Assembly: GCF_005116455.1 (NCBI RefSeq)
Contig: NZ_SWBP01000002.1
Span: forward strand, 186,001 to 250,000
DNA: 64,000 nucleotides
From: Pedobacter cryophilus
Lineage (GTDB): Bacteria; Bacteroidota; Bacteroidia; Sphingobacteriales; Sphingobacteriaceae
Direction of reading: 5' to 3'
The translations under genes were made by a program, and so were the position numbers. Below the pieces are notes generated by a model. It was given only the letters and a program-made list of their open reading frames with translations. It ran no database searches and was not told where the DNA came from. How positions within the stretch are numbered: position 1 is the first letter of the stretch; every line of letters starts with the position of its first letter. This document shows, one piece after another, positions 7,945-30,445 of this stretch.

Positions 7945-8275
7945 TTAAAATTCCCATCCATATCATTTTCTTTCTTATCAGAAATTAAATTGATCAATAT
8001 TTAGATTTATTTAGGGCATTTTTATGTGCCTTAATACTGTCTTTTTCACTAATTTAATATTTTACCCCTATTTTCTTAAGATTTTACTCCTCTAAAACTT
8101 TAGTGTCTTATACATTAGTGTTAACCAAATAAATCTTTTTTTAGAAAATTTTACTGTTTAAAATTCAATTAGAATTTCTGCTATGGCTGATTTCTATTGA
8201 GTTAACGTTGAGTATATCAAGTCTAAATTTGGATAGCTGGATTTAAATCTGTTTTAAACCAATTAAAAATTAAAT
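7945..8275. other. Upstream region of the first PUL gene
   Basis: This 331-bp spacer has no gene. It carries the tandem boxes at 8059-8091 and a TTAACCAA at 8121-8128, 30 bp after the second box. The SusC upstream region has the same word 29 bp after its second box. No clear TAnnTTTG minus-7 box was found. Confidence 0.55.
8059..8091 (+). promoter_or_regulatory. Tandem boxes 22 bp apart: candidate site of the hybrid regulator (site 1)
   Basis: ATTTTACCCCT (8059-8069) and ATTTTACTCCT (8081-8091) are direct repeats whose starts are 22 bp apart, two turns of the helix. The same arrangement lies before the GH2 operon (20221-20253) and before susC (26894-26926). AraC-type outputs such as that of the regulator encoded at 16033-20115 often bind direct repeats with this phasing. 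The second box begins 195 bp before the start codon at 8276. Confidence 0.7.
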
Positions 8276-9769
8276 ATGATGAGAAAATTACTTTTGAAAC
8301 AAAATCTCTTGATTAAGAAATTGTCAATTTCCCTGTTTGCTCTTATTATTAGTACAAATACATTCGGGCAAAGTCCAGAAATATTTTCTACTGCAGGTAC
8401 TTACAGTTGGGTTTGTCCAACTGGTGTAACTACTTTACAAGTTGAGTGTTGGGGTGCAGGAGGAAGTGGAGGAAGTGCAACTGCAGCTGTTGGACGAGCA
8501 GGCGGTGGTGGTGGTGGTGGATCTTATGTTAAGAATAATTTTAGTGTAACTCCTGGTGTAAGTTATACAATAATTGTGGGAGCAGGTGGATTACAAGGTT
8601 TAACTACATCTGCAGGTGTAAATGGAAATCCTGGAGGTAAATCTGAATTTTCTGGACCTTCCATATCAACTTTAACTGCATCTGGTGGAGCCGCAGGGAG
8701 TGGTGCAACATCTCAAAATCAGTCAGGTCCAGGAGGATTATTAGGGGGAGTGTATGGAGTTAATATAACTTCTTCAGGAACTGCTAATAGTGGTACTTCA
8801 TCTGCTATTACAACTATTTCTGGTGGTGGGGGTTCAGGAGCTACAGCAAATACTTCACTCAGTACTGGTGTTTTATCTTATATAACTATGACAAGTCAAG
8901 GTTCGGGTTATACTAGTGTACCTACCGTAACGATAAATGGTGATGGCACAGCTTCTGCAGTAGTTAATTTTGATATTGATGCTGGAGCAAGTTTAGTTAC
9001 CAAAGGCGTTAGTGGAAGTAATGGAGTCTTAAGTACAGGAGGAGGAGCTGGTGGTGCTGGAGGAAATGGAGGGGCAGGAGGTGCAATTAATAATGTTCAG
9101 GGGACTGTTGGTGCTGTAGGTATCGCACCAGGAGGTGGAGGAAGTGGAGGTTATGCTTCAGCTTCTTCAGCTAAAGGTGGGGCTGGTGCAGTTGGGAAAG
9201 TAATATTAACATATCCAGTAACCTTACCAGTTTCATTAACTTCATTTTCTGCTCAAAAACAATCGTTATCAGTTCAATTAAAATGGACAACTGCTTCCGA
9301 AGCAAACAACTCTCATTTTGATGTAGAAAGATCAGCAGATGGAAAAGTTTTTAATAGCATTGGGCGTAAATCTGGTGCGGGTAACAGTAATACAATAATA
9401 GACTATTCATTTTCTGATCATCACCCTGCAGCAGGTACAAACTATTACCGTTTAAACCAAGTTGATTTAGATGGTAAAGCTACTTTAAGCAATCCAATTA
9501 GTGTTAATATGGGCTTTGAAGGTTTAGCAATGCAAATTTTTTCATCTTCAAATGCTTCAGATTTAAAAATTAATATTGCTGCCGACAAGGAGTCTTCAGG
9601 TCAGTTTATTATTTATACTGTTTCTGGTCAAAAAATAGTAGAACAATCTTTATCCCTAACTAAAGGGAATAATGATTTCTCTATTTCAATGCCTGATCTA
9701 GGAAGTGGAGTTTATATTGCAACCTATAAAAATGAAACTCAATCAATAAATAAAAAATTTGTGAGATAG
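8276..9769 (+). CDS. Secreted glycine-rich protein with T9SS sorting domain
   Basis: This 497-residue protein has a signal peptide that ends near NTFGQ. A beta-rich start (FSTAGTYSWVCPTGVTTLQVECWGAGGSGG) leads into a domain of Gly-rich repeats to about 300. Residues 201-233 hold a GSGYTSVPTVTINGDG segment that recurs in the SusD protein of this locus. From about 318 a fibronectin-like module (SLTSFSA, LKWTTASEANNSHFDVERS, YYRLNQVDLDGK) is followed by a type A T9SS sorting domain ending in KKFVR, so the protein should be exported and anchored or released by the T9SS. It is a single-gene unit behind the site-1 boxes and ahead of a terminator. The role is unknown; a surface adhesin or glycan-binding protein is an inference. 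The ATG at 8279 is an equally good start. Confidence 0.75.
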   Translation: MMRKLLLKQNLLIKKLSISLFALIISTNTFGQSPEIFSTAGTYSWVCPTGVTTLQVECWGAGGSGGSATAAVGRAGGGGGGGSYVKNNFSVTPGVSYTIIVGAGGLQGLTTSAGVNGNPGGKSEFSGPSISTLTASGGAAGSGATSQNQSGPGGLLGGVYGVNITSSGTANSGTSSAITTISGGGGSGATANTSLSTGVLSYITMTSQGSGYTSVPTVTINGDGTASAVVNFDIDAGASLVTKGVSGSNGVLSTGGGAGGAGGNGGAGGAINNVQGTVGAVGIAPGGGGSGGYASASSAKGGAGAVGKVILTYPVTLPVSLTSFSAQKQSLSVQLKWTTASEANNSHFDVERSADGKVFNSIGRKSGAGNSNTIIDYSFSDHHPAAGTNYYRLNQVDLDGKATLSNPISVNMGFEGLAMQIFSSSNASDLKINIAADKESSGQFIIYTVSGQKIVEQSLSLTKGNNDFSISMPDLGSGVYIATYKNETQSINKKFVR

Positions 9770-9785
9770 TTTTCTCTAATATTAT

Positions 9786-9831
9786 AATAGTCATCAGTAG
9801 GCTTTTGAGTTTACTGAATGACTATTTCTTT
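9786..9831 (+). terminator. Hairpin terminator after the glycine-rich protein gene
   Basis: AATAGTCATCAGTA (9786-9799) pairs with TACTGAATGACTATT (9812-9826) with one bulged base, and a short T-rich tail follows. It separates the 8276 gene from the esterase gene at 9897. Confidence 0.65.
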
Positions 9832-9896
9832 AATCCCAGACATTCGATATAATCTGTTTTTGATTAGTGTCTTTTGTTTAAATTTTTAATAAAACG

Positions 9897-10787
9897 ATGA
9901 TGAAAAAAATAGTTATTTTATTCAATCTATTAGTTGTAGCATCTTTTGTTTATGCTCAAGAGGAGGTTCCAGTTATAAAAAAAGTAACCTATCCGGCAGG
10001 TTATACCAGTGAGTTAAATGTAGTTTATACTTCTGCACCCGGTTGGGAAGGAAAAATGGATCTTTATTTGCCCTCAAAAGATAAAGGTTTATCTCCGGCA
10101 ATTATCAATATACATGGTGGAGGTTGGAGTGGTGGATCAAAAGATACGCAAGGAGGTTTCAATACCTATTTTAAAGCTGGCTTTGCGGTGGCAAACATTG
10201 CTTATCGTCTTTCAGGTCAAGCAACAGCTCCTGCTGCGATAGAAGATACGCGTTGTGCCTTAATTTATCTGATTAAAAATGCAAAAGCTTTAAACATTGA
10301 TGTGAACAAGATTATAATTATGGGTGGTTCGGCCGGAGGGCACTTAGCGTTAATGGGTGGTTTGTTAGCTAATGACAGCAGATTTGATACAAATTGCCCA
10401 GGAGTAAAAAATATTAAGGTAGCAGCCATTATTGATAAATATGGAATTGTAGATGTTGGCGATAAAAGATATGGCAAGTTTAGAAGCGGCTCTGAAAGGA
10501 AATGGTTAGGAGGAAAAGTTGCTGATCAAGCTTTTATAGAATCTGTTTCTCCAATTTATCAGGTTAAAAAAGATAGTCCGCCAATATTTATAGCACATGG
10601 TGATGCTGATCCAACAGTTCCTATTCAGCAATCTATCGATCTAAAGAAAAAATTGGATGAATTAGGTGTAAAAAATGAATTTATGACTATTCCGGATGGT
10701 TTACATGGGCAATTTACATCTGAGCAAAATGCAACGTTAAATAATGCAATTATGAAATTTATTTTGAGTCTGAAGGAATTCAAATGA
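9897..10787 (+). CDS. Secreted alpha/beta-hydrolase, BD-FAE-like carbohydrate esterase
   Basis: The 296-residue hydrolase has a signal peptide ending VYAQ. The oxyanion-hole motif HGGGW comes first, then the nucleophile elbow GGSAGGH with Ser145, then the acid in HGDADPTVP and the catalytic His in DGLHGQF near the C-terminus. This layout fits the bifunctional acetylesterase/feruloyl esterase-like (BD-FAE, formerly BD-FAE/Esterase_lipase) group, which removes acyl groups from plant or algal polysaccharides. Within the PUL it would strip acetyl or other esters so that the lyases can act; the exact ester is not visible from sequence. Its stop overlaps the start of the next gene by 4 bp (ATGA), so the two are co-translated. 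Confidence 0.85.
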   Translation: MMKKIVILFNLLVVASFVYAQEEVPVIKKVTYPAGYTSELNVVYTSAPGWEGKMDLYLPSKDKGLSPAIINIHGGGWSGGSKDTQGGFNTYFKAGFAVANIAYRLSGQATAPAAIEDTRCALIYLIKNAKALNIDVNKIIIMGGSAGGHLALMGGLLANDSRFDTNCPGVKNIKVAAIIDKYGIVDVGDKRYGKFRSGSERKWLGGKVADQAFIESVSPIYQVKKDSPPIFIAHGDADPTVPIQQSIDLKKKLDELGVKNEFMTIPDGLHGQFTSEQNATLNNAIMKFILSLKEFK

Positions 10788-12817
10788 ATAATAAATTAAT
10801 AATTTATCTTTTTTTGTGGATTACGAGTTGTACTCCTAGCATTGCACAAACTTCTAATCTGGTTTCAATAGATGTCAATGGTAAATTGACCTATGCTGCT
10901 GATAGTAAAGGAAATAAAGTTCCTGATTTTAGTGGGGTAGGTTATATGAACAGTGAATTGGCTATACCAACAATTGAGGTTGTGAAAACTGTAAATCCTG
11001 TATCGGGAGATAATTTAGCTAACGTACAGAGCGCTATAGACGAAGTGGCTGCTTTAACGCCAGATGCTAACGGTTTTAGAGGTGCTATTTTGTTTAAAGC
11101 GGGAAATTATAATATAAGTGATATCATCACCATTAATACGAGCGGAATTGTACTAAGAGGAGAGGGATTTAACGGTTCGGGTACCAATTTCATTGCTACC
11201 AAAACCTCACAGCATACCTTATTTAATTTTGCCGGAAGTACTGGTACAGCTCTTTCATATTCCTCATTAAAAGCAGTTACAGATACTTATGTTTCTATTG
11301 GGTCGAAACAAGTTACAGTAGCAAACGGACATACATTTGTAGTAGGTAACCATGTTTTTATTCATCATATTCCAAATCAAGCTTGGATTTCTTTATTGAA
11401 AATGGATATTTTAAGTACGTTAGCTGGTGCTGATGCTCAAACTGTTAATTGGACCCCTCAAGCCTATGATGTTTATTATGAAAGGAAGATAACCGCAGTA
11501 AATGGGAATATCATTTCTTTTGATGCGCCCGTTATGGATGTTATTGATCCATTATATACAACCGCTGAAGTGGTGAGGTTTAATGATTATAGAATACAAA
11601 AATGTGGTATAGAAAATATGAGAATTACGTCTACCTATACCTCTAACACAGATGAAAACCACGGTTGGGAAGCCATAGCTTTTAAAAATATAATAAACGC
11701 ATGGGCTTCTAACATAGAAGTGTATTATTTTGGATTTGCAGCAGTAAATGTGAATAAAAGTGCTAGTTTCATCACCGTTGATAATTGTAAAATGTTAGAT
11801 GCAAAGTCACAAATTACGGGAGGTAGACGCTATTCTTTTAATGTTGATGGACAGCGCACATTAGTTAAGAATTGTACTACACGTAGTGGTAGACATGATT
11901 ATGTAACCGGATCTATTGCAGCAGGTCCAAATGTATTTTATAATTGTACTGCTACTTTACAACAGAATAATATTGGGCCTCATCAAAGATGGTCAACTGG
12001 TATTTTATTTGACCAAATTGTTGGTAATGGTCAACTTGATGTCGAAAACAGGACTACTTCTGGTTCGGGGCATGGTTGGGCAGGAGCGCAAATTATGTTT
12101 TGGAATTGTATGGGTAGTGAAATGGTATTACAAGATCCTCCAGGTGAACATAGAAATTGGGCCGTAGGATTTAAAGGAGTAATCACCAATGTTGGGTTTA
12201 TGACTACAGAGCCAATGGGTATTAAAGAATCTAACGGAACCTATATTACTGCAATTCCTAGTTTATTTAATGCTCAGTTAAATGAAAGACTAAGCAATAA
12301 TACACTTCCAATAGTTTTGGGAGGCTTCAATATAAAGGCACAGTTTACATCAACTTTAATTAGTTGGTCTACAGTTTCAGAGAAAAACAATTATGTTTTT
12401 TTGGTGGAACACGCTACTAATAATTTAGATTTTAAAATAGTTGGAGAGGTAAAAGGTAAGGGCAACTCTAATCAAACAGCTAATTATCAGTTTGAACATC
12501 TATCTCCTGTTATTGGTTTAAATTACTATCGTTTAAAACAAGTTGATTTTGATGGGAATTTCACCTATAGCCCAATTAAGGTGATAAAGTTTAAATCAAG
12601 CGGCCTGATTTTAAAATCAAATGTTGTGGAAGAAATTTTAGAAATGAATATTACTCAAGATGTAGAAACATCTTTATTTTTTTATAATAGTGCAGGGCAA
12701 AAAATGTTAACCATAAAAGGAAAAGGTACGCAATTAGTTAACGTTTCTAGTTTTCAAGCAGGTGTTTATTACATTAAAACGGCTGAGGGTGATAGTATTA
12801 AATTTTTGAAATTGTAA
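10784..12817 (+). CDS. Secreted right-handed beta-helix protein with T9SS sorting domain
   Basis: The 677-residue protein has a signal peptide ending SIAQ. It continues with a pectate-lyase-like superfamily fold: an N-terminal cap with AILFKAGNYNISDIITINTSGIVLRGEGF, then many short beta-helix rungs to about 500 (for example RIQKCGIENMRI, ASFITVDNCKM, GPNVFYNCTA). The C-terminal 170 residues are a module related to that of the glycine-rich protein at 8276-9769 (SWSTVSEKNNYVFLVEH, YYRLKQVDFDGN) plus a T9SS sorting domain. A polysaccharide lyase or hydrolase acting at the cell surface is likely, but I cannot name a CAZy family or catalytic residues. It overlaps the esterase gene by 4 bp. Confidence 0.75.
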   Translation: MNNKLIIYLFLWITSCTPSIAQTSNLVSIDVNGKLTYAADSKGNKVPDFSGVGYMNSELAIPTIEVVKTVNPVSGDNLANVQSAIDEVAALTPDANGFRGAILFKAGNYNISDIITINTSGIVLRGEGFNGSGTNFIATKTSQHTLFNFAGSTGTALSYSSLKAVTDTYVSIGSKQVTVANGHTFVVGNHVFIHHIPNQAWISLLKMDILSTLAGADAQTVNWTPQAYDVYYERKITAVNGNIISFDAPVMDVIDPLYTTAEVVRFNDYRIQKCGIENMRITSTYTSNTDENHGWEAIAFKNIINAWASNIEVYYFGFAAVNVNKSASFITVDNCKMLDAKSQITGGRRYSFNVDGQRTLVKNCTTRSGRHDYVTGSIAAGPNVFYNCTATLQQNNIGPHQRWSTGILFDQIVGNGQLDVENRTTSGSGHGWAGAQIMFWNCMGSEMVLQDPPGEHRNWAVGFKGVITNVGFMTTEPMGIKESNGTYITAIPSLFNAQLNERLSNNTLPIVLGGFNIKAQFTSTLISWSTVSEKNNYVFLVEHATNNLDFKIVGEVKGKGNSNQTANYQFEHLSPVIGLNYYRLKQVDFDGNFTYSPIKVIKFKSSGLILKSNVVEEILEMNITQDVETSLFFYNSAGQKMLTIKGKGTQLVNVSSFQAGVYYIKTAEGDSIKFLKL

Positions 12818-13028
12818 AATTAACAAGGGAAAAATAACGAGCCTTCTAAATATTTTTTGGATGTGATAACCAATTTACCTTTCATATAGTACTAAAAAGC
12901 GTAGCTTGGGCTGATTTTATTAACCTAAATCAATATTTATAAGCAATAAAAATATGTGTTTTTTGCATTCTTTTTTAAATGAGAAAGAAAAGGACATACA
13001 CTCTAATTTAAAGGATTAAAAAAGTAAG

Positions 13029-14957
13029 ATGAAAAATTTAAAACTTGTATGCTGTATTTTTTTACTTCTCTTAGGCGGTAAATTAAGTGCAAAGGTAATT
13101 TTACCGAGTTTAATTAGTGATGGTATTGTTTTACAACGAGACATAAAAATACCCATTTGGGGTTGGGCAGATAATGGCGAAGAAGTAACCGTTTCATTTA
13201 ATGGGAAAACCTATGTTGCTAAAACAGGTATCGATAAAAAATGGAAAGTGATGCTTAATCCGGTTAAAGCAGGTGGTCCTTTTGAAATGAAAATTGTTGG
13301 AACCAATACAATTACTGTTAAAAATATTTTAATAGGCGATGTTTGGCTTTGCTCTGGTCAATCTAATATGGAGTATGAATTGTATAAATCTGCCGAGAAA
13401 TATTCTAAAGAAATAGCAGCTTCTACTAATGATCAGATCAGGCATTTTCAGGTAAAAAGACGAATTGGTTTTAACACATCTAATGATATAGAATCTGTAA
13501 ATGGGTGGCAGGCGGCTAGTCCTACAACGGTGCCTAATTTCACAGCAGTCGGTTATTTTTTTGCTAAAGATTTATATGAAAAGTATAAAGTCCCCATCGG
13601 AATCATCAATAGTTCTTTTGGCGGTACACCAGCCGAAGCATGGATGAATGAAAATGCTTTAAAAGATTTTCCAAATTATTATGCTAATGCGATGAAATAT
13701 AAGGATACTGCTTTAGTAGATAAGATTACTGCGCAAGATAAAGAGATGGTGGATAGTTGGTACAAACAAGTGAATGATGGGGATATTGGAACAAAAGAAA
13801 AGTGGTATGAGAATAATTATAATTCATTAGACTGGAAAACAATACAAATGCCTGCTTTTTGGCAAGATAAAGGTTTAAGTGATGCCGGTGTGGTTTGGTT
13901 TAAGAAAGAGATAAATATTGATGCTGCAGATTTAGGTAAAAATGCGATATTAAAATTGGGAAATATCATTCAAAGAGATATTACTTATTTTAATGGCGTA
14001 ATGGTGGGTACAACTGGTAATAAATATCTGGATAGAAACTATATTATTGAAGCAAAGCTTTTAAAAGTGGGAAAAAATGTGATCATCGTTCGTGTTTTAA
14101 ATGAAGGTGGAGATGCAGGATTTATTAAAGATAAGCCTTATCAATTAGAACTCAATAGCAAAAATATAGACCTTAAAGGCGATTGGCAATACAAACTATC
14201 TAACAGCAGTAAACCTTTGCAAAGAGGCGGAATGACGACTTTTCAAAGAGAACCTACCGCAATGTACCATGGAATGTTAGAGCCGCTTGTTGGCTATGCC
14301 ATTAAAGGTGTAATTTGGTATCAGGGAGAGTCAAACATTGGTAGAAACCAAGAATACCATCAACTATTTTCTGGCTTAATTACCCAATGGAGAGAAGAAT
14401 GGGCGCAGGGTGATTTCCCTTTTCTGTTTGTACAATTAGCCAATAACAATCCGCCTAAAAAAGAACCTAGTGAAAGTAGTTTAGCTGCTTTGCAAGAAGC
14501 TCAACAACAAACGTTGGCCTTACCAAATACAGGTATGGCGGTAGCTAATGATATTGGCGAATGGAATGATGTGCATCCTAAAAATAAATTGGATGTTGGT
14601 AAGCGATTGGCTTTAGTAGCTCAAAAAGTAGCTTACGGTGATGAGAAAGTAGTATATTCTGGTCCCGTTTATCAATCTATGAAAATTAAGAAGAATAAAA
14701 TAATTCTTAGTTTTTCAAACATAGGAAGTGGCTTAATGGCTAAAAACGAAGGGGAGTTAAAGTATTTTTCTATTGCAGGTGCTAACAAAAAATTTGTTTG
14801 GGCAAAAGCTAAAATATCTAAGAATACCATTACGGTTTGGAATGAAAATATATCATCGCCAGTAGCGGTAAGGTATGCGTGGGCAGATAATCCAGAAGGA
14901 GCCAATCTTTATAACAAAGAAGGTTTACCAGCTTCAGCTTTTAGAACTGAAAAATAG
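13029..14957 (+). CDS. Sialate O-acetylesterase-like (SASA) carbohydrate esterase
   Basis: SASA-family SGNH hydrolases remove O-acetyl groups from sugars. The 642-residue product has a signal peptide (to about 22). An N-terminal beta domain is followed by block I with the nucleophile, SGQSNMEYEL (Ser112). A jelly-roll insert comes at about 255-395, then GVIWYQGESN (oxyanion residues) and block V, NDVHPKNK (His516). The insert resembles the beta-galactosidase-type domain found in many Bacteroidetes members of the family. Bacteria without sialic acid often use these enzymes on acetylated plant or microbial glycans, so the sialate name is not a substrate call. The gene starts a unit that continues with the beta-helix protein and the regulator. 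Confidence 0.88.
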   Translation: MKNLKLVCCIFLLLLGGKLSAKVILPSLISDGIVLQRDIKIPIWGWADNGEEVTVSFNGKTYVAKTGIDKKWKVMLNPVKAGGPFEMKIVGTNTITVKNILIGDVWLCSGQSNMEYELYKSAEKYSKEIAASTNDQIRHFQVKRRIGFNTSNDIESVNGWQAASPTTVPNFTAVGYFFAKDLYEKYKVPIGIINSSFGGTPAEAWMNENALKDFPNYYANAMKYKDTALVDKITAQDKEMVDSWYKQVNDGDIGTKEKWYENNYNSLDWKTIQMPAFWQDKGLSDAGVVWFKKEINIDAADLGKNAILKLGNIIQRDITYFNGVMVGTTGNKYLDRNYIIEAKLLKVGKNVIIVRVLNEGGDAGFIKDKPYQLELNSKNIDLKGDWQYKLSNSSKPLQRGGMTTFQREPTAMYHGMLEPLVGYAIKGVIWYQGESNIGRNQEYHQLFSGLITQWREEWAQGDFPFLFVQLANNNPPKKEPSESSLAALQEAQQQTLALPNTGMAVANDIGEWNDVHPKNKLDVGKRLALVAQKVAYGDEKVVYSGPVYQSMKIKKNKIILSFSNIGSGLMAKNEGELKYFSIAGANKKFVWAKAKISKNTITVWNENISSPVAVRYAWADNPEGANLYNKEGLPASAFRTEK

Positions 14958-14987
14958 TTGAATAAAAATCAGCATAAAGCTTATAAA

Positions 14988-15977: not shown

Positions 15978-16032
15978 TTTCCCTAAGCTTAAAATAGGAG
16001 ATAATTTTTATATTTATGAATGCTTTTTAAGT

Positions 16033-19000
16033 ATGAAATACATCAGTTTTAAACTAAAACCTTTTAAAATTTATCAAAAAACATTTGCCTTTTATATATG
16101 GGTAATGTTTTTTTCTTGTCCTTTATTTGCGCAAATCAACCAGTTTCAGTTCGAACGTTTTACGGTAGAAAGAGGCCTTTCACAAAGCAGCGTATTATCT
16201 ATCGCTCAAGATAGTATGGGCTTTATTTGGATGGGTACAAAAGATGGTTTAAACCGCTACGACTCTCAAGGGTTTGAAGTTTATAAACATCAAGTTAATG
16301 ATAAAAACTCTATCAGCAGCAGTTTAAATATCAATACTTTATTAACAGATAGTAAAGGAAACTTGTGGGTAGGCACTCAAGAAGGCTTAAATAAATATGT
16401 CCCCGAAACCAATTCTTTTATCAGGTATTTAAACCAGCCAAACAATAAAACCAGCCTTAGTAATAATACCATCAGAAGCCTTTATGAAGATAAGCAGGGA
16501 AACCTATGGGTTGGAACAGAAAATGGACTGAATAAATTAGTTGGAAATCAAAAGTTTGAACGATTTTTTTGTTCTGGATCTGTAGGTAACAAGATGGTTC
16601 ATCCTATTATAAAGGCCATTTATCAGGATAGTAAAAATATTTTGTGGGTAGGAAGTTTAAAAGGTTTGGTTTCCATGGATTTAAAAAATGGATTATATAG
16701 GCTTAAAACCTATGTACATGAGCCATTAAACCAGCAAAGTTTAGCCTCAAATGATGTTAACGCCATTACCGAAGATTTAAATCATAACCTGTGGATTGGA
16801 ACCCATTTTAACGGCTTAGATTTTTTTGATAGAACAAATAATCAGTTTCGGCATTTTAAGAGTGAGCCAGGCAATCAAAATAGCTTGAGTAGCAATACCA
16901 TAAGAAAAATAATGGTGAATAAAGATGGTAATCTTTGGATTGCTACCTTAAATGGAATAAATATTTTTGATCCGGTTAGTCGGCAATTTAAACTTCAAAA
17001 ACACGATCCGGAAAATTCTACCAGCATTAGTCAAAATTCTATCTATGATGTTTTTCAGGATAAAGCAGGCTCAGTATGGGTTGGAACATATTATGGAGGC
17101 GTAAATGTGTATCATCCTAATGCCGTTACCTTCAAAATTTATAAATATTATTCTTACAAAAATTCACTGAGCAGTAATATTATCAGTGCAATTGTAGAAG
17201 ACAAACAAAATAATTTATGGATTGGTACCGAAGCCGAGGGGTTGAATTATTATAACAGAAAAACAGGTCAGTTTGCAAAGTTTAGCGTAAGTTCTGGAGC
17301 TAAAAGCACCTTAAGTTCTAACCTTATTAAATCCATTGCTATTAATAAAAATGGCGACTTATGGATAGCAGCTTTTGAATCAGGTTTAGATTTATATTCT
17401 CCTAAAACCGGAATTTTTAAAAATTATAAGTTAAACCCTGATGATCCAAATTCATTATCAGCCAATAGAGTCTCTTATTTATTTTATGATCATTTAGATA
17501 GGCTTTGGATTGGAACCAAGGGTAGCGGGCTTTATCAATATAATGCTCAAAAAGATGGTTTTACATCATTATTAGAAAGTAAGAGTTTGTATCATTTGCC
17601 GTCAAAATTTATCAATTATATCTTTCAAGATCAAAAACAAAATATTTGGGTAGCGGCTTCCAATGGGATATTTTATCTTTCAAAAAATGGAAATAGTTTC
17701 AGCAAGTTTGAAAATCCCAATCAAATAGCTTTAAATAATGTAAACTGTATTCAACAAGATAGCAAAGGCTTAATTTGGTTTGGTAGCTCAAACAAAGGTT
17801 TGTTAAGTTTTAATATCGCTACAAAAAAGACAGTAATTTATGGTTTAGATGAAGGTTTGCCCTCTAATAATGTAACCAGTATTGTAAACGATAATGAGGG
17901 CTATTTATGGATAAGTACCGATAAAGGTTTAGCTAAATTAAATGCAGGTAAATTTAAAATTTACACCAGAGGTGATGGTTTGCCGGGTAATGTTTTTAAT
18001 TATCACTCCTTTTTAAAGGATAGTAAAGGAGAACTATTTTTTGGTGGATATAATGGTTTGGTAAGTTTTAAGCCCGAGGAAATTGTTGAGAATAAAACAG
18101 TTCCAAAAATAGCTTTCACAAGGTTAAGGCTTTTTAATAAAAATGTAGAGATTAATGATGAAACTAAATTATTATCTAAAGCATTCATAAAAACTAACGA
18201 GATTACTTTTTCTTATGATCAAAATACATTTACCATAGATTTTGTAGCACTTAACTTTGTAAAATCTCAAAAAAATAAATTTGCCTACAAGCTTGATGGC
18301 TTTGAAAATGAATGGAAAGATTTAGAAAACCCAAGCATTACCTTTAATAATTTACCCAACGGAACTTATAAACTGCTCATAAAAGGGACAAATAATGATG
18401 GTATTTGGAACTCAGAACCAAAACAACTCATCATCAATATTAACCCCCCGTTTTGGAAAACTTGGTGGGCTTATTTATTTTATACCCTAGTGGTTATAGG
18501 TTTACTTTTTATTGTGGTGAGATTTTTATTAATGCGGGCTTTATTAAAAAGAGAGCATGACATTCATCAGATGAAGTTGTCTTTTTTCACTAATGTATCT
18601 CATGAAATTAGAACGCCTTTAACACTAATTATGGCGCCGCTAGAAAAATTGATACAAGACAGCTTTGAGAACAGAAATCTTAACAGGCAATTATTAGATG
18701 TTAATAAAAATGTAAAAAGACTTTATCGTTTGGTAAACGAGTTAATGGATTTTAGAAAAGTAGAATCTGGTAAGATGAAATTGAACGTTACCGAAGATAA
18801 TTTGGTGAGTTTTATTAAAGAAATTTATTTGTCTTTTCAAGACATGGCTTTTCAAAGAAATATCCATTTTAAATTTGAAAGTGAACATTCAATTGTACAG
18901 GCTTATTTTGATAAAGATCAATTAGAGAAAGTTGTTTTTAACCTGCTTTCTAACGCTTTTAAGTTTGTTCCTGATCAAGGTAAAGTTTCCATTAATATTC

Positions 19001-20115
19001 AGGTAGTAGATTCTCAAATTTTAGTAAAAGTGTGTGATAATGGCGCCGGTATTCCAAAAGAAAGTATTCCAAAATTATTTACTGATTTTTATCAGGCAGG
19101 TAACCACCAACAGCGGAATGCAGGAACAGGGATAGGTTTAGCACTATCTAAACGGATTGCAAACCTGCACCATGGCGATTTGTTTTTAGATGAAAACGAT
19201 GCTCAAACCTGTTTTTGTCTTTTACTTAAAACGGGGTTTAATCATTTTAAAAAGGATGAATTAAAAGAAAATATAGATCAAGAGGGTTTAACCGGTTATG
19301 TGTTGCAAACAGAAATAGACAACATGATAGATCAAGAACCTGTAAAAATAAATCAGGTTAATAAAGAAGGAAAGCATGTTGTTTTGATTGCAGAAGATAA
19401 CTTAGAATTGAGGAAATTTATTACTCAAACTTTATCTTCTGATTATTTAGTTGTTGAAACCGAAAATGGCTTAAAAGCCTTGGAAATGGCTACAGAACTT
19501 ATTCCCGATTTAATTATTAGCGATGTAATGATGCCCGTAATGGATGGTTTTGAACTTTGCCGAAACGTAAAAACTGATGAAAGAACCAGTCATATTCCTG
19601 TGGTTTTATTAACGGCTCGGTCTGGAGATATTCATGAATTGGAGGGGCTAAAAACAGGTGCCGATTTATACCTCACCAAACCATTTAGTTTGCGAAAGTT
19701 GCAATTAAACATACAGAATTTAATTGCTGCTCAAGAAAATAGGAGAAAGAAGTTTAGTCATCATTTTACACTACAACCTTCAGACGTTGAATTTGAATCA
19801 TCTGATGAAGAGTTTTTAAATAAGATACTTCATTTACTAGAAGATAATATAAGCAATTCAGAATTTAATGTAAACCAATTTGCCGCAGAAATAGGAATGA
19901 GTACCCCTATTTTTTATAAAAAAATTAAAGCTTTAACAGGCTTAACCGTAAATAATTTTATTAAATCTATCCGTTTAAAAAGAGCGGTTCAATTACTACA
20001 GCAAGGCAATAATAATATATCAGAAATAGCTTATATGGTAGGCTTTACCGATGCTAAGTATTTCAGTAAAGAATTTAGTAAACAATACGGTATAAGTCCT
20101 TCAAAATTCAATTAG
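16033..20115 (+). CDS. Hybrid two-component system sensor/regulator of the PUL
   Basis: This 1360-residue protein joins sensor kinase, receiver and DNA-binding output. After a signal peptide the periplasmic part has about 14 propeller repeats of the type GNLWVGTxxGLN (Reg_prop), then a Y_Y_Y domain up to about 800. A transmembrane helix follows at 811-834, then HisKA with NVSHEIRTPL (His857) and the HATPase domain (GTGIGLALSKRI). The receiver starts near 1115 with phospho-acceptor Asp1164 in ISDVMMP, and an AraC-type double HTH fills about 1270-1360. Such proteins bind a breakdown oligosaccharide in the periplasm and activate their PUL. The gene follows the beta-helix gene by 55 bp, so it is probably in that operon. 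Likely targets are the 22-bp-spaced boxes at 8059, 20221 and 26894. Confidence 0.95.
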   Translation: MKYISFKLKPFKIYQKTFAFYIWVMFFSCPLFAQINQFQFERFTVERGLSQSSVLSIAQDSMGFIWMGTKDGLNRYDSQGFEVYKHQVNDKNSISSSLNINTLLTDSKGNLWVGTQEGLNKYVPETNSFIRYLNQPNNKTSLSNNTIRSLYEDKQGNLWVGTENGLNKLVGNQKFERFFCSGSVGNKMVHPIIKAIYQDSKNILWVGSLKGLVSMDLKNGLYRLKTYVHEPLNQQSLASNDVNAITEDLNHNLWIGTHFNGLDFFDRTNNQFRHFKSEPGNQNSLSSNTIRKIMVNKDGNLWIATLNGINIFDPVSRQFKLQKHDPENSTSISQNSIYDVFQDKAGSVWVGTYYGGVNVYHPNAVTFKIYKYYSYKNSLSSNIISAIVEDKQNNLWIGTEAEGLNYYNRKTGQFAKFSVSSGAKSTLSSNLIKSIAINKNGDLWIAAFESGLDLYSPKTGIFKNYKLNPDDPNSLSANRVSYLFYDHLDRLWIGTKGSGLYQYNAQKDGFTSLLESKSLYHLPSKFINYIFQDQKQNIWVAASNGIFYLSKNGNSFSKFENPNQIALNNVNCIQQDSKGLIWFGSSNKGLLSFNIATKKTVIYGLDEGLPSNNVTSIVNDNEGYLWISTDKGLAKLNAGKFKIYTRGDGLPGNVFNYHSFLKDSKGELFFGGYNGLVSFKPEEIVENKTVPKIAFTRLRLFNKNVEINDETKLLSKAFIKTNEITFSYDQNTFTIDFVALNFVKSQKNKFAYKLDGFENEWKDLENPSITFNNLPNGTYKLLIKGTNNDGIWNSEPKQLIININPPFWKTWWAYLFYTLVVIGLLFIVVRFLLMRALLKREHDIHQMKLSFFTNVSHEIRTPLTLIMAPLEKLIQDSFENRNLNRQLLDVNKNVKRLYRLVNELMDFRKVESGKMKLNVTEDNLVSFIKEIYLSFQDMAFQRNIHFKFESEHSIVQAYFDKDQLEKVVFNLLSNAFKFVPDQGKVSINIQVVDSQILVKVCDNGAGIPKESIPKLFTDFYQAGNHQQRNAGTGIGLALSKRIANLHHGDLFLDENDAQTCFCLLLKTGFNHFKKDELKENIDQEGLTGYVLQTEIDNMIDQEPVKINQVNKEGKHVVLIAEDNLELRKFITQTLSSDYLVVETENGLKALEMATELIPDLIISDVMMPVMDGFELCRNVKTDERTSHIPVVLLTARSGDIHELEGLKTGADLYLTKPFSLRKLQLNIQNLIAAQENRRKKFSHHFTLQPSDVEFESSDEEFLNKILHLLEDNISNSEFNVNQFAAEIGMSTPIFYKKIKALTGLTVNNFIKSIRLKRAVQLLQQGNNNISEIAYMVGFTDAKYFSKEFSKQYGISPSKFN

Positions 20116-20467
20116 CTCCTTCATCAAATTATAACACACAAAATCGTTATCATTTTTTGGTAAGTTGCGTATGAGTAGCGTAACTACTATTTACAAGCTT
20201 TTAATTGGTCGATAAATAAGATTTTCACCCTTTTTATTTAAAATATTACCTCTGTAAACTTGGCTATTGCGCTAGTTTAGTGCTTCCCAAAAAAGTAAAT
20301 TATAACCGAAACCATTATTAATGCTTAATATCTTGTTGGTATTGTTATTTAACAATGTATTAGTACAAAATAATGATATGGCTTTATTAGATTAAAAATT
20401 GCTGTTGAGAAAAAATGCCTATGAAAATAATTAATTTAACTACCCTTTTATATAATTAATTTAAGAA
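20116..20467. other. Upstream region of the GH2-lyase operon
   Basis: The 352-bp spacer has no gene. It contains the regulator-type boxes at 20221-20253 and then a long A/T-rich leader. No terminator for the regulator gene and no convincing minus-7 box was found. Confidence 0.5.
20221..20253 (+). promoter_or_regulatory. Tandem boxes 22 bp apart: candidate site of the hybrid regulator (site 2)
   Basis: ATTTTCACCCT (20221-20231) and ATATTACCTCT (20243-20253) repeat with the same 22-bp phase as site 1. The second box is the weakest of the six, matching 9 of 11 positions of ATTTTACCCCT. It lies 225 bp before the GH2 start. Confidence 0.6.
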
Positions 20468-22939
20468 ATGAAAATGATGTTGATGCGAAGATTATTAGTG
20501 TTACTTGCTGTGTTTTTAAGCCTTAGCCATTCTGTGAAATCTCAACAAACAAAGCGTTTAAACCAAGGTTGGGAGTTTTTAAAAGGAGATTTAGGAGGTG
20601 TTTGGGAAGCCATGAGGCCGGTTAAAGAAGGGAGCTCAGAAAGTGTACCCATTTGGTCAAAAGTAAGTCTTCCACATTGCTTTAATGCTCAAGATGCGGT
20701 TGACCCTGATTTAAATTATTATCAAGGGCCGGGATGGTATCGTACAAATTTAACTATAGAAAACAGCTATAAAAACGGAAGAATTCTTTTGCATTTTGAA
20801 GGTGCCGGACAAAAAACTGCGGTTTATGTTTACAATACCAAAGTAGGAGAGCATGTGGGCGGTTATGATGAATTTACGGTAGATATTACTGATGCCGTTG
20901 CTGCTTTTAAGAAAGAAAAAGTTTTTAACGAGCAATTTAAAGGTCAGGTTCCTATTGCTATAAGAACAGATAACTCCCGAGATTTAGAAATGATTCCGTC
21001 AAGTCTATCAGATTTTAATGTTTATGGCGGTATTTACAGGTACTTAAACTTGGTGTACACGCCTCCCGTTTCTGTAGATAAAGTTTTTGCATTAGCAGAG
21101 GTTGATGCTCAAGGAAAAAAAGGAACGCTAAATATTTCTGGTAGGTTTTATAATCCAACACAAGTAGGCACTGTCAACGCAATGGTTACAGTTAAAGATC
21201 CATTCGGAAAAATTATTTATACTTTAAAAAGTGAGGTTACCAGCTTTCAAAGTAAAAATGACTTAGCTAAAATCAACATCAATAAACCAAAATTATGGTC
21301 GCCAGATGCGCCAAATCTTTACACAGTAGAACTTAGTGTCGCTACAAACGGAGAAACTCATACCAATATAGAAAAAGTTGGTTTTCGCCATTTCGAATTC
21401 ATTAGAAAAGGTCCTTTTCATTTAAATGGAAAAAGATTATTGCTAAGAGGAACCCATCGCCATGAAGATCATGCGGATGTAGCCGCCGCCATGACAGAGG
21501 ATATGATTCGTACCGAAATGCTGATGATGAAAGATATGGGTGTAAACTTTATCCGTTTAGGGCATTATCAGCAATCAAGAATTGTATTAAACCTTTGTGA
21601 TAGTTTAGGCATTATGGTTTGGGAAGAAATTCCTTGGTGTAGAGGAGGTTTAGGTGGCGAAGTTTATAAAGATCAAGCCCGTAGAATGCTCACAAACATG
21701 ATAGAGCAGCATTATAACCACCCATCAGTAATTATTTGGGGCTTAGGAAATGAAAACGATTGGCCAGGTGATTTTACCACATTTGATGAAGAAGCGATTC
21801 GCACTTTTATGAAAGAACTCAACACTTTGAGCCATCAATTAGATCCTACCCGTAATACTGCCATTAGAAGATGTGATTTTTGTAAAGATATAGTAGATGT
21901 TTATTCTCCCTCTATTTGGGCCGGTTGGTACCGAGGAATATATACTGAATATAAAGAAGTTAGTAAAAAAGAATTTGATTCGGTTGATCGGTTTCTACAT
22001 GTAGAATGGGGCGGCGATAGTCATGCTGGCAGACATTCTGAAACTCCAGATGATGCTTTAAGTAAAATTAAAAAAGCTGAAAGTGCTGATGAAAGAGCAG
22101 GAGACGCATCATTATTTGGCGGAAGTGCAAGGGTTTCTAAAGATGGAGATTGGAGCGAAAGTTATGTGTGTAATTTAATAGATTGGCACTTAAAAGAGCA
22201 AGAAACCATGCCTTGGTTAAGTGGATCTGCTTATTGGCCTTTTAAAGATTTTTCTACGCCAGTAAGACCAGATAACCCTGTGCCTTACATGAACCAAAAA
22301 GGCGTAATAGAAAGAGATTTTACTAAAAAAGAAGCTTTTTACGTTTTTCAATCTTACTGGACAGACAAGCTAATGGCCCACATTTATGGTCATAGTTGGC
22401 CAACACGTTGGGGAGATGTAGGAGAAGCTAAAATGCTGAAAGTATATTCTAATGCAGAGGAAGCCGAGTTGTTTTTTAACGGACAAAGTATGGGCGTTAA
22501 AAAACGTAATAGTCAAGATTTTCCAGCATCAGGCTTACGCTGGATGGTGAATTACAAAGAAGGTGTAAACCAAATAAAAGTAATTGCCAAAAAAGGAAAA
22601 GAAACAGTAGTTGATGAGCTGACTCAAAATTACCAAACTGCTAAATGGGGAAAGCCGGCCAAATTAATTTTAGAAAAAATAGCAGATGCTGATGGCGAAA
22701 TCACCATTCAGGTTAAGGTTTTAGATGCCAACAACGTTTTATGTTTAGATGCTAAAGAGTATGTAAATTTTAACCTTACCGGTGATGGAAAACTGCTGGA
22801 TAATCGTGGGACTTCATCAGGGTCTAAAAAAGTGCAGTTCTATAATGGAAGAGCAACCATCAGTTTGAAAACCAATGGTGGTAAAAGTGTGGCTAGTGCT
22901 AAAGCAGACGGAATTTCTACCGTGTTTTTAAATCTATAG
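20468..22939 (+). CDS. Glycoside hydrolase family 2 enzyme
   Basis: GH2 enzymes are retaining exo-glycosidases: beta-galactosidases, beta-glucuronidases, beta-mannosidases and others. The 823-residue protein has a signal peptide (to about 25), a sugar-binding jelly-roll domain (30-200), an Ig-like sandwich (to about 310) and the TIM barrel. The barrel opens with LNGKRLLLRGTHRHEDH; the acid/base is Glu429 (GLGNEND) and the nucleophile is Glu513 (LHVEWGGDSH). A C-terminal DUF4982-like and Ig-like tail follows 640. The GNEND and HVEWGG variants are not those of classic LacZ, so the specificity is open; in this locus a beta-galactosidase or beta-glucuronidase acting on oligosaccharides is most likely. 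First gene of a four-gene operon, 4 bp before the next start. Confidence 0.9.
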   Translation: MKMMLMRRLLVLLAVFLSLSHSVKSQQTKRLNQGWEFLKGDLGGVWEAMRPVKEGSSESVPIWSKVSLPHCFNAQDAVDPDLNYYQGPGWYRTNLTIENSYKNGRILLHFEGAGQKTAVYVYNTKVGEHVGGYDEFTVDITDAVAAFKKEKVFNEQFKGQVPIAIRTDNSRDLEMIPSSLSDFNVYGGIYRYLNLVYTPPVSVDKVFALAEVDAQGKKGTLNISGRFYNPTQVGTVNAMVTVKDPFGKIIYTLKSEVTSFQSKNDLAKININKPKLWSPDAPNLYTVELSVATNGETHTNIEKVGFRHFEFIRKGPFHLNGKRLLLRGTHRHEDHADVAAAMTEDMIRTEMLMMKDMGVNFIRLGHYQQSRIVLNLCDSLGIMVWEEIPWCRGGLGGEVYKDQARRMLTNMIEQHYNHPSVIIWGLGNENDWPGDFTTFDEEAIRTFMKELNTLSHQLDPTRNTAIRRCDFCKDIVDVYSPSIWAGWYRGIYTEYKEVSKKEFDSVDRFLHVEWGGDSHAGRHSETPDDALSKIKKAESADERAGDASLFGGSARVSKDGDWSESYVCNLIDWHLKEQETMPWLSGSAYWPFKDFSTPVRPDNPVPYMNQKGVIERDFTKKEAFYVFQSYWTDKLMAHIYGHSWPTRWGDVGEAKMLKVYSNAEEAELFFNGQSMGVKKRNSQDFPASGLRWMVNYKEGVNQIKVIAKKGKETVVDELTQNYQTAKWGKPAKLILEKIADADGEITIQVKVLDANNVLCLDAKEYVNFNLTGDGKLLDNRGTSSGSKKVQFYNGRATISLKTNGGKSVASAKADGISTVFLNL

Positions 22940-22943
22940 TTTG

Positions 22944-24143
22944 ATGAGCAGATTAAGGAGCATCCCATTTAAATCTTTTTACTGTTTGGCTATTTTGGCT
23001 GGTTTATTTTTGATATGCAGTGCTTCAAAATCTATTGCTTCGCCAATAAACATTAAAAACCAAGCAGAAGAAATTCTAAAAAAACAGATAATGGAAGAAG
23101 CAGAATGGGCTTTAAAACAAGAACCCATTACGGTAACAGCTTCAATTTCAAATAGAAGTGCAGGCGGTAAAAATGATTTCTATTCTGAAGGAGATTATTG
23201 GTGGCCTAATCCTCAAGATCCTAATGGGCCTTACATTCAAAAAGATGGATTAACCAATCCTGATAATTTTGTAGCGCATCGTTTTGCGATGATAAGATTT
23301 AGCCAAATTATAGGTTCTCTTTCATCGGCATATAAAATCACAAAAAACAAAAAATACGTAAAACATGCAGTATTACATTTAAAAGCTTGGTTTCTGAATC
23401 CAGAAACCCGCATGAATCCAAATTTGCAATTCGCACAAGCCATTAAAGGATTATTCACCGGAAGAGGAATTGGCATTATTGATACCGTTCATTTAATGGA
23501 TGTGGCACAGGGAACTTTGGTGATGCAAAGCAAAATTAACAAAACAGATTTAGCCGCAATAAAGAATTGGTTTGCTGATTATTTAACTTGGTTAATGTCG
23601 CACCCTAATGGAAAAGCAGAAATGGCGGCTAAAAATAATCATGGTACTTGTTTTACCATGCAGGTGGCGTCTTTTGCAAAGTTAACCAACAATCAAGAGC
23701 TTTTAGATTTCTGTACAAATCGATACAAAACAGTTTTATTGCCAAATCAAATGGCAGCGAATGGCAGTTTCCCATTAGAAATGGCTCGTACAAAACCTTA
23801 TGGTTATTCTCTTTTTAATTTGGATGCCATGAGTACCTTATGTCAGATTTTATCAACTCCAAAAGATAATTTATGGGCTTATGAAACTTCTGATGGAAAG
23901 TCAATTAAAAAAGGAATCAGTTTTATTTACCCATTTATAGCCGATAAAAGTAAGTGGGAATTAAAGCCCGATGTAATGTATTGGGAAAATTGGCCTGTAG
24001 CGCAACCTGCACTTTTATTTGGCGCAAATGCTTATCAAGAAAATAGCTGGTTTTTAACCTGGAAACAATTAGATCATCAGCCTAAAGTAGCCGAAGTTAT
24101 CAGAAACTTACCGGTAAAATATCCATTAATTTGGATCAATTAA
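22944..24143 (+). CDS. Alginate-lyase-superfamily polysaccharide lyase, PL38-like
   Basis: The enzyme should cleave a uronic-acid polymer by beta-elimination. The 399-residue protein starts at ATG 22944 (a TTG one codon upstream is the alternative), with a signal peptide ending SIA. The rest is an (alpha/alpha) toroid of the alginate_lyase Pfam type. It contains YSEGDYWWPNPQDPNGPY near the start and the catalytic-type motif NNHGT (Asn231, Asn232, His233), with LARTKPYGYSLFNLDA-like helix later. PL38 members I know of cut glucuronan or related beta-1,4-glucuronic acid chains, while PL5 cuts alginate; the long N-terminal YWWPNP motif favours the PL38-type group. It is the second gene of the GH2 operon. 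Confidence 0.8.
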   Translation: MSRLRSIPFKSFYCLAILAGLFLICSASKSIASPINIKNQAEEILKKQIMEEAEWALKQEPITVTASISNRSAGGKNDFYSEGDYWWPNPQDPNGPYIQKDGLTNPDNFVAHRFAMIRFSQIIGSLSSAYKITKNKKYVKHAVLHLKAWFLNPETRMNPNLQFAQAIKGLFTGRGIGIIDTVHLMDVAQGTLVMQSKINKTDLAAIKNWFADYLTWLMSHPNGKAEMAAKNNHGTCFTMQVASFAKLTNNQELLDFCTNRYKTVLLPNQMAANGSFPLEMARTKPYGYSLFNLDAMSTLCQILSTPKDNLWAYETSDGKSIKKGISFIYPFIADKSKWELKPDVMYWENWPVAQPALLFGANAYQENSWFLTWKQLDHQPKVAEVIRNLPVKYPLIWIN

Positions 24144-24160
24144 TTTTAAAATATCATTGT

Positions 24161-25375
24161 ATGATTAATCTTATCAACCCAAAAAGAATCTTTTTAATAC
24201 TATTAATTGCCTTTTCTACTATTGGTTTTACAAACGCTCAAAAGCCTAATATTAGAAAAACATTGAAACATGCAGAGCAGCAAACTGATTTAATGCTGAG
24301 CGAAATTGAAAAAGCAGATGATAAAAACGGAACTTTAGTTTCGCCCCGCACTTTAGAAAACGGAGAATTAAAATTAGTGGCCTCCAAAGACTGGACAAGC
24401 GGTTTCTTCCCCGGCGAATTATGGTATTTATTTGAGCTTACTAAAGATGAAAAGTGGAAAACTGAGGCTCAAAAATTTACCTCCAAAATTGAAGAAGAGA
24501 AACTTAATGGCAAAACTCACGATATGGGCTTTAAGGTGTATAATAGTTTTGGAAATGGCTATCGTTTAACAAAAGACAATCATTATAAAGAGGTCATTAT
24601 TCAATCGGCTAAAACTTTAGCCACTCGTTTTAATCCTATTGTAGGTGCCATCAGATCTTGGGATCATAATGCTGATAAGTGGGATTTTCCAGTAATTATA
24701 GATAACATGTTAAACCTCGAATTGCTTTTTGAGGCTACAAAACTTACCGGAGATTCAACCTTTTATAAAATTGCAGTGAGCCATGCCAATACCACTTTAA
24801 AAAATCATTTCAGACCCGATTTTAGCACTTACCATGTAATAGGTTATAACCCCAAAACAGGTGAAGTAGTAAAGAAGAATACTCACCAAGGCTACTCAGA
24901 TGCTTCAGCATGGGCTCGTGGAATGGGTTGGGCGCTTTATGGCTATACCATGTGCTATCGCGAAACTAAAGATCCAAAGTATTTAGAACAGGCAAAAAAT
25001 ATAGAAAAATTCATATTTAGCCATAAAAATATGCCCTCAGATTTGGTCCCTTACTGGGATTTTGATGCGCCACAAATACCTCAGGAGCCCAAAGATGTTT
25101 CTGCCGCTGCAATATATGCATCAGCTTTGTATGAGTTAAGTGCTTATACCAATAACAAGAATTATATCGCGAAAGCAAATAAAATTATGAAAAGCATCAA
25201 TAAGAAATATAGTGCTGCTTTGGGCGAAAAAAGAGGATTTATTTTAGATCATAGTACAGGTTCTAAACCTCATAATGGCGAAGTAGATGTACCCTTAAGC
25301 TATGCAGATTATTACTATTTAGAGGCTTTAGTGAGATATAAAAATATTAAAAACCAGCAACCTGTAATTCAATAA
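24161..25375 (+). CDS. Unsaturated glucuronyl hydrolase, GH88
   Basis: GH88 enzymes hydrate the 4,5-double bond left by lyases and so release the unsaturated uronic acid from oligosaccharides. I chose ATG 24161, which gives a proper signal peptide ([19 protein letters not shown]); a TTG at 24131 would overlap the previous gene. The 404-residue product has the (alpha/alpha)6 barrel, with the two conserved acidic residues in THDMGF (Asp121) and [10 protein letters not shown] (Asp181), plus [20 protein letters not shown] in the substrate cleft. Its presence directly after a lyase gene is strong evidence that the locus works on a uronate-containing glycan. The next start lies 1 bp after its stop codon. 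Confidence 0.92.
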
Positions 25376-25376
25376 A

Positions 25377-26693
25377 ATGAAGAATTTAGGCTCGTTAATT
25401 GGTTTTTTTAGCTTTTTATTCCTTTTAAACACTAGTTCAATAGCTAAAGATTATGTGGTTTCTTCGGCTATAGAAATTAATATTTTAAAATTAGCACCCG
25501 GTGATACAGTGATTCTTAAACAGGGAGATTGGAAAGATCAAAAAATTGTATTTAAAGGTAAAGGAACAGAAAAACAGCCTATCTATTTGCTAAGTTCAAC
25601 AGCCAGTTCAATCACTCTGTCCGGAAACTCCAGTTTAAAAATTGAAGGAGAATGGTTAGTGGTAGATGGCTTGGCTTTCTCCGATGGTTACTCTGATAAA
25701 GAAGATGTAATTGTTTTTACTAAAAACACATCAAATAGCCGCTTAACCAATAGCAGTATTTTAAATTATAATCATCCTGATAAAAGCATAGATTATAAGT
25801 GGATTTCTTTAAACGGAACAAATAATAGGGTAGACCATTGTTCTTTAAAAGGTAAAACACATCAGGGAACTACATTGGTAGTTTGGCTTTCAGAAAAACC
25901 AAATTATCATCAAATAGATCATAATTATTTTGGTCCTCGCCCGCCTTTGGGTGTAAATGGAGGCGAAACCATTAGAATTGGAACCAGCCAATGGTCTATG
26001 TATGATTCTAATACCAAAGTAGAGTATAATATTTTTGATAAATGTGATGGTGAAGCCGAAATTATTTCCATAAAATCTGGGTATAACCAAATCAATAATA
26101 ATTTATTTTATGAGTGCGATGGTACGGTTACTTTTAGGCATGGTAACAACTCTGAAGTGGCAAATAATTATTTTATTGGTAACGGCAAAAAGGGTACAGG
26201 CGGAATTAGAATTATAGGCGAGAATCAAAGTGTGCATGATAATTACCTGCAAGGCTTAACAGGGACAGGTTTAAGGGCAGCTATTTCTGTAATGAATGGG
26301 CTAAAAGGACCTAAATTAAATGAATATTTTGCGGTTAAAAATGCAAGTATTAAGAATAATGTAATTGTAAATTGTGTGGAGGCTTTTGCTATAGGTGCCG
26401 GAAAAAATAGTACAAGAGTGGTGCCTCCAACAAATTTAACAGTAAGTAATAATTATATTATTAAGCCTAAGATACTATGGAATTTAGAAGACCAACCTCT
26501 AAAACTAACAGTAAGTAATAATTATGTAAAAGGAGCTGAATTAATTGATGGTTTTACCCAAATGTTTGAAGAGTTTGTAACCACAAAAGAAAATTTAACC
26601 AAAGAAAAAAGTAAACAAGATGCCCCTTTTTGGCTTAACGAAAGTATTGGGCCAAAATTGATAAAAAATAAATTTCAGGTAATAGTGCGGTAG
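25377..26693 (+). CDS. Polysaccharide lyase family 6 enzyme (alginate lyase/chondroitinase B type)
   Basis: The 438-residue beta-helix protein has a signal peptide ending SIAK and the family's N-terminus ([26 protein letters not shown]). The key stretches are all present: [14 protein letters not shown], then [12 protein letters not shown] with Lys233, then [17 protein letters not shown] with Arg254. Lys and Arg are 21 residues apart, the same spacing as the Lys/Arg catalytic pair of characterised PL6 alginate lyases, so the enzyme should be active. Known PL6 substrates are alginate (poly-mannuronate/guluronate, poly-MG) and dermatan sulfate; the partners here favour a non-sulfated uronan because no sulfatase is present. 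Last gene of the operon, followed by a terminator. Confidence 0.9.
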
Positions 26694-26744
26694 GTTTGGG
26701 ATAACAATAGGGTTATTATATTTTATTAATTTTTGGTTTAGGTG

Positions 26745-26773
26745 AGGATAACTTTAAGGTTATCCTTTTTTTA
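26745..26773 (+). terminator. Rho-independent terminator after the GH2-PL38-GH88-PL6 operon
   Basis: AGGATAAC (26745-26752) and GTTATCCT (26759-26766) form a perfect stem with a 6-nt loop, followed by seven Ts interrupted only afterwards. Confidence 0.85.
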
Positions 26774-26893
26774 TTTATAAGGTTATTCTTACAATCTTAT
26801 TTTCAGTATCAGAGATGATTATCTCCCATATTAAACTTTTCTTCTCTAAGCATACTAAACTCATTTTAGTTAAAATAATGTTCTTTTTTTAAG

Positions 26894-26926
26894 ATTTTCT
26901 GCCTGTTTTTTTAAGATTTTACACCT
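26894..26926 (+). promoter_or_regulatory. Tandem boxes 22 bp apart: candidate site of the hybrid regulator (site 3)
   Basis: ATTTTCTGCCT (26894-26904) and ATTTTACACCT (26916-26926), each preceded by AAG, are 22 bp apart as in sites 1 and 2. The second box begins 194 bp before the susC start, almost the same distance as at site 1 (195 bp). TTAACCAA follows at 26955-26962. The rest of the 416-bp spacer (26694-27109) holds the preceding terminator and A/T-rich leader and no gene. Confidence 0.7.
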
Positions 26927-27109
26927 ATTAGTAGGTTAACTTATTTACTTTAGATTAACCAATTAGAACTATTTCAAATCATTAAAATGAACTCTTAACT
27001 GCTAACTGCAGTGCTTAATAGAATTTTTATTCTACTTAAGATTTGGGTTATTTAATTTAATGAAATGGTATTTATTTCAATAAAAAAACCAATAACCAAA
27101 AATTAAATT

Positions 27110-30364: not shown

Positions 30365-30445
30365 ACTAACCTTTTAAGAATTAATTTTAAATAGACTTCC
30401 AGTTCAATTATTGAAGTCGATTTTTTAAACATAAAAAATATTAAA

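Follow-up and report, generated by a model that had tools for sequence, protein, structure and literature searches.

At the pBAD promoter of E. coli, AraC, a soluble arabinose-binding regulator, occupies two direct half-sites, araI1 and araI2, which lie two helical turns apart, the downstream half-site adjoining the -35 element, and activation there is of the class II type. Direct repeats have also been described for HTCS regulators: the passages of Ravcheev et al. (2013; PMC3878776) compared here report 16 predicted HTCS motifs, all of them direct repeats, with an average of 21 bp. HTCSs bind directly at their clusters in ChIP-seq (PMC3404733), and HTCS output domains bind two susCD promoters with predicted sites in EMSA (Gao et al., 2024; PMC11253607).

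In the window, by which we mean the whole 64-kb stretch of DNA analysed here, three promoters of a PUL carry tandem sites that very probably serve as operators for the cluster's own HTCS (gene at 16033-20115), whose AraC-type output domain would bind them. Operators of the direct-repeat kind are already known, and the window sites, judged from their sequence, appear to add a well-supported case. As far as the compared passages of PMC3878776 go, the likeness to Bacteroides HTCS operators lies in a direct pair about 21 bp apart, upstream of susC or enzyme operons beside the HTCS gene. In contrast, the window belongs to a Pedobacter-like genus, the spacing in this genome is 22 bp, and those passages give no fixed distance to the promoter, whereas here the distance is fixed at +19. 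The half-site here is TTAAGATTTTnCnCCT. Like the HTCSs studied at the bt4114 and bt4662 promoters (PMC11253607), the window regulator has a receiver and an AraC-type HTH, an S/CHIP receiver motif (here SHIP, at residue 1186) and predicted sites in a susCD promoter; binding at the bt4114 and bt4662 promoters is experimental, whereas binding by the window HTCS is predicted.

An HTCS gene, tandem half-sites and predicted -7 boxes

The regulator gene encodes a complete HTCS, in which Pfam places a propeller sensor, a histidine kinase (motif SHEIRTPL), a receiver and an AraC-type HTH in one chain (Table 1); the receiver-HTH part covers residues about 1113-1360. PDB entries 4a2l and 12aw are relatives of the protein; for its output domain the relative is 12aw, a solved HTCS fragment, with Rns and AraC as weaker ones. 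As no residue of the window HTCS could be confidently equated with the alpha-6 Asp of the S/CHIP-DK motif (PMC11253607), we make no claim about it.

Both lyases of the four-gene operon behind site 2 match solved alginate-lyase-type enzymes; the second is PL6, and the first is taken to be PL38-like. A terminator-like hairpin after the PL6 gene splits this operon from site 3. The secreted Gly-rich protein behind site 1 (window 8276-9769) carries a Por-type sorting tail, and proteins of this kind recur in the regulon in several species (for example L198:8633-10114). A gene for a NamZ-type exo-muramidase (32418-33797) follows immediately after susD and is encoded on the other strand.

An earlier note on this DNA had reported six 11-bp boxes, paired at a spacing of 22 bp. 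On reading the window sequence we found all six, with that start-to-start distance in each pair: ATTTTACCCCT/ATTTTACTCCT at 8059/8081 (site 1), ATTTTCACCCT/ATATTACCTCT at 20221/20243 (site 2) and ATTTTCTGCCT/ATTTTACACCT at 26894/26916 (site 3). The distances it gave from the start of the second box to the ATG (195, 225 and 194 bp for sites 1, 2 and 3) were also right. The boxes were correctly placed but drawn too short: alignment of the six copies gives a conserved half-site of about 16 bp, TTAAGATTTTnCnCCT, which holds two conserved words, TTAAG and CnCCT, roughly one helical turn apart. At all three sites the two similar copies run in the same direction, their spacing is close to the ~21 bp of HTCS operators (22 bp here, 21 or 22 bp in orthologs), and they lie in promoters of the PUL adjoining the HTCS gene, that of susC included. 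No site was found before the HTCS gene, as the note had said of the regulator, or before either unit of the esterase region (9897 and 13029).

In each of the three promoters, the word TAnnTTAG starts exactly 19 nt past the downstream half-site; the intergenic DNA of the cluster (1,441 nt) contains this word three times, each at the +19 position. The Bacteroidota sigma-A -7 box is TAnnTTTG at -12 to -5 (PMC9723704; also PMC7366714), and TAnnTTAG departs from it by one mismatch, at the same distance at all three sites. Reckoned from these predicted -7 boxes, the upstream half-site runs from about -69 to -54 and the downstream one from about -47 to -32. A scan for sigma-70 promoters was uninformative for Bacteroidota.

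A further word, TTAACCAA, follows 28-29 nt past the end of the second box at sites 1 and 3. We considered it as an operator half and rejected it: it is common in the window (13 occurrences vs 7.5 expected), and its ACCAA lies 4-5 nt past the -7 box, at about +1 to +6 on the predicted start, so that a part in the predicted start region fits better than one in the operator. In Pedobacter-like loci, ACCAA occurs exactly 4 nt past such -7 boxes 15 times vs about 5 at other offsets, an excess that comes partly from orthologous promoters and from a second promoter type that shares ACCAA. Nor was the palindrome TTTGGTWNACCAAW enriched in the genome (2 matches vs 9 in the reversed control).

Table 1. 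Features of the cluster in window coordinates; half-sites are from the alignment of copies, and promoter elements are predicted.
Feature	Position	Strand	Sequence or content	Remark
Gly-rich protein gene	8276..9769	+	Gly_rich_2, Por_Secre_tail	behind site 1
HTCS gene	16033..20115	+	Reg_prop, Y_Y_Y, HisKA, HATPase_c, Response_reg, HTH_18 (Pfam)	
Enzyme operon	20468..26693	+	GH2 / PL38-like lyase / GH88 / PL6	behind site 2
Terminator-like hairpin	26744..26767	+		after PL6 gene
susC-susD pair	27110..32290	+		behind site 3
Site 1, upstream half-site	8054..8069	+	TTAATATTTTACCCCT	
Site 1, downstream half-site	8076..8091	+	TTAAGATTTTACTCCT	start-to-start 22 bp
Site 1, predicted -7 box	8111..8118	+	TACATTAG	predicted +1 near 8123
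Site 1, word at predicted transcript start	8124..8128	+	ACCAA	
Site 2, upstream half-site	20216..20231	+	ATAAGATTTTCACCCT	
Site 2, downstream half-site	20238..20253	+	TTAAAATATTACCTCT	
Site 2, predicted -7 box	20273..20280	+	TAGTTTAG	predicted +1 near 20285
Site 3, upstream half-site	26889..26904	+	TTAAGATTTTCTGCCT	
Site 3, downstream half-site	26911..26926	+	TTAAGATTTTACACCT	
Site 3, predicted -7 box	26946..26953	+	TACTTTAG	predicted +1 = 26958, first A of ACCAA

Rarity in the genome and conservation in relatives

Single boxes are not rare, with 159 matches to ATTTTACNCCT at ≤2 mismatches vs 130 expected. When a matrix was built from two sites, the held-out third was the top non-training match at spacing 22 in the 64 kb, both strands; with spacings of 15-30 allowed, at most one other place scored as high in the six tests. 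In the 4.0-Mb genome, the tandem pattern at ≤1 mismatch occurs at four places, the three sites and C1:1142980, a junction of two coding sequences. The full module, including the -7 box, has exactly three matches in the genome at ≤3 mismatches, namely the three sites, and the reversed-pattern control has none; the pattern was derived from the sites themselves, so that what counts is the lack of any further match. Of the outside matches, the two examined as possible extra regulon members, C1:1142980 and C15:106212 (a terminator-like stretch), were rejected, and both lack the -7 layout. The many random hits away from glycan genes that the earlier note had named as contrary evidence did not appear, the genome holding no further promoter-associated matches.

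We located orthologous clusters in Pedobacter-like genomes through relatives of SusC and the HTCS. Related sites, spaced by 21 or 22 bp, occur in seven other such genomes that encode an orthologous HTCS, and the genes behind them are susC, GH2, a PL38-like gene or a Gly-rich unit. They stand before susC and the PL38-like gene in L061, before susC and GH2 in L155 (P. psychrophilus) and L148 (G011), before susC and a Gly-rich unit in L150 and L145 (G003), before the Gly-rich unit in L141 (G011), before GH2 in L154 (G002) and before two genes in L152 (P. puniceum). In most of them 19 or 20 nt separate the repeat from the -7 box, these sites being degenerate and their register partly chosen by eye. 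The boxes are thus kept, with drift, at orthologous promoters and not lost, as they would have been had the note's other counter-indication held, and together with the uniqueness in the genome this supports its reading of them as operators. The exact 22-bp spacing it described holds for the three window sites, while relatives use 21 or 22 bp.

A search of 60 relatives, which share descent and are not fully independent tests, gave no match to the 22-bp module at ≤3 mismatches. The 21-bp module at the same threshold matched only G009, G011 and G017, with no match for its control, and each of these three genomes encodes an orthologous HTCS (56-61% identical). The match lies near the HTCS gene in two of the three, in G009 in the stretch that separates a susC gene from the end of the HTCS gene. 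The match of P. psychrophilus (G017) lies about 13 kb from the HTCS gene, at the Gly-rich unit, upstream of genes for a secreted protein, a Gly-rich protein and then an esterase, all on the same strand. This Gly-rich protein shares 59% identity with its window counterpart over the C-terminal part, and the esterase shares 78% with its own. Because a homologous unit stands behind an operator-like site in P. psychrophilus, the comparison supports counting the Gly-rich unit as part of the regulon, and it suggests that the esterase may share the Gly-rich transcription unit. The earlier note was right that the esterase and regulator units lack boxes of their own; different expression of the esterase unit, which it also suggested, is doubtful, since in P. 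psychrophilus the Gly-rich and esterase genes form an unbroken row on one strand behind one operator.

The sites might instead be operators of another regulator, either another HTCS or a Crp/GntR-type factor, with the cluster HTCS acting elsewhere. About five other HTCSs are encoded in the genome, and the same clusters in relatives carry a second, palindromic operator-like sequence. Yet the sites are confined to this cluster, and every match of the 21-bp module among the 60 relatives falls in a genome that encodes an ortholog of the cluster HTCS. The recognition helix, moreover, is kept along with the motif: in the orthologs of L061, L150, L148, L062 and L154 the DNA-binding domain shows 64-78% identity with that of the window HTCS, and all five share GMSTP(I/V)FYKK in the first recognition helix, whereas in five other HTCS paralogs examined in the genome the domain is 35-45% identical and the recognition helix differs. 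Direct repeats two turns apart are also the published signature of HTCSs and do not suit a palindrome-binding factor. We consider assignment to another regulator unlikely, and the HTCS of the cluster remains our reading. Two loci with an HTCS 55-56% identical, L149 (G003) and L151 (G036), showed no convincing site in the locus DNA examined; possibly their target genes lie outside that DNA, or the difference lies in their recognition helix, which reads STSVFYKK (STSVF vs STPVF).

The palindromes, TTTGGTAAACCAATTAATTGGTTTACCAAA-like and overlapping the -7 box and start, mark a second promoter type in the related clusters (L150:1414, L150:13526, L141:3940(-) and L145:2865) and were not found in the window. 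The one in L141 lies just upstream of a gene for a 249-aa FadR/GntR-like regulator, which suggests a repressor operator.

That the repeated words belong to the core promoter or the 5' leader, as a sigma-factor or RNA element, would account for their fixed distance to the -7 element and for the recurrence of ACCAA at the predicted start. However, the tandem words lie upstream of that start and would not be transcribed, and the full module is absent from the rest of the genome. In a paralog HTCS cluster of the same genome (L161), moreover, the same layout occurs with other half-site words, as expected of different activators working with one sigma factor, and we regard a core-promoter or leader feature as very improbable. 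Chance similarity in AT-rich intergenic DNA, for which the loose tandem pattern at ≤3 mismatches (3 matches vs 1.7 expected in the window) and the long T runs that inflate similarity at site 3 could be cited, is hardly credible against the leave-one-out ranks, the genome-wide uniqueness with an empty control, the -7 box at +19 in every case and the conservation in other species.

Proposed mechanism and a possible general layout

Taking the tandem pairs as HTCS operators, we infer from their geometry how binding, activation and induction might proceed. A single AraC-type domain would read each half-site of about 16 bp, with its two helix-turn-helix units on the words TTAAG and CnCCT. With a repeat of 21-22 bp, an activated dimer would have both its domains on one face of the helix, separated by two turns, and binding would presumably depend on phosphorylation. 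The downstream half-site (-47 to -32) would occupy the position of the -33 element. Because it ends 19 nt before the -7 box, at that position, the bound HTCS is most likely a class II-type activator, which would contact RNA polymerase and substitute for the missing -33 element. In its direct half-sites two turns apart and its class II-type activation, such a promoter would resemble pBAD; unlike AraC, the window regulator is a membrane-bound phosphorelay hybrid, and the sigma factor is one with a -7 box. Sensing of a glycan, probably one that contains uronate (candidates are acetylated uronate polymers of a glucuronan- or alginate-like kind), would then jointly induce the Gly-rich unit, the GH2-PL38-GH88-PL6 operon and susCD.

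The layout may extend beyond this cluster. In 79 susC upstream regions, with no motif assumed, tandem 16-mers (≥12/16 identical) were found at lag 22 in 21 regions and at lag 21 in 9, compared with about 3 at other lags; the lag-22 count is an upper bound, since it includes some repeated terminators and palindromes. Upstream of 618 noncoding -7 boxes from ~107 Bacteroidota PUL loci, repeats (≥11/16) numbered 32 at lag 21 and 13 at lag 22 over a background of ~8.5, and their ends lay mostly 18-26 nt before the -7 box. Kinship among loci inflates both lag counts. It is moderately likely that HTCS promoters across Bacteroidota share a 21-22 bp repeat ending about 19 nt before the -7 box, in which the regulator takes over from the -33 element and the half-site sequence alone varies. 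The literature we found, in a search that left supplements and most subscription papers aside, states no fixed distance between repeat and -7 box; this coupling is the less familiar part of the layout and may be new.

Several other tandem words were seen in the same genome. In the L161 cluster (C14) the 21-bp tandem TGAACAAATTTAGCAT/TAAACAAATGTACTAT at L161:8096(-) lies 20 nt before TACTTTAG. At L185:12075 and L185:18850 (C12), 21-bp tandem words precede TAnnTTTG near a further HTCS gene and are possibly its operators. A perfect 22-bp tandem repeat of TTCACGCAAAGGTCGCAAAGTT lies in a noncoding stretch at L184:4927 (C9).

For this organism, the analysis places three units under one sensor as a small putative regulon and yields predictions at the level of single bases. 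If the general layout is true, sequence alone would suffice to read HTCS regulons together with their start sites: where the repeat stands with respect to the -7 box would be a rule that makes the regulons of glycan clusters predictable without expression data. Half-sites could likewise be matched to recognition helices, and their linkage across many HTCSs could give a readable recognition code for these regulators.
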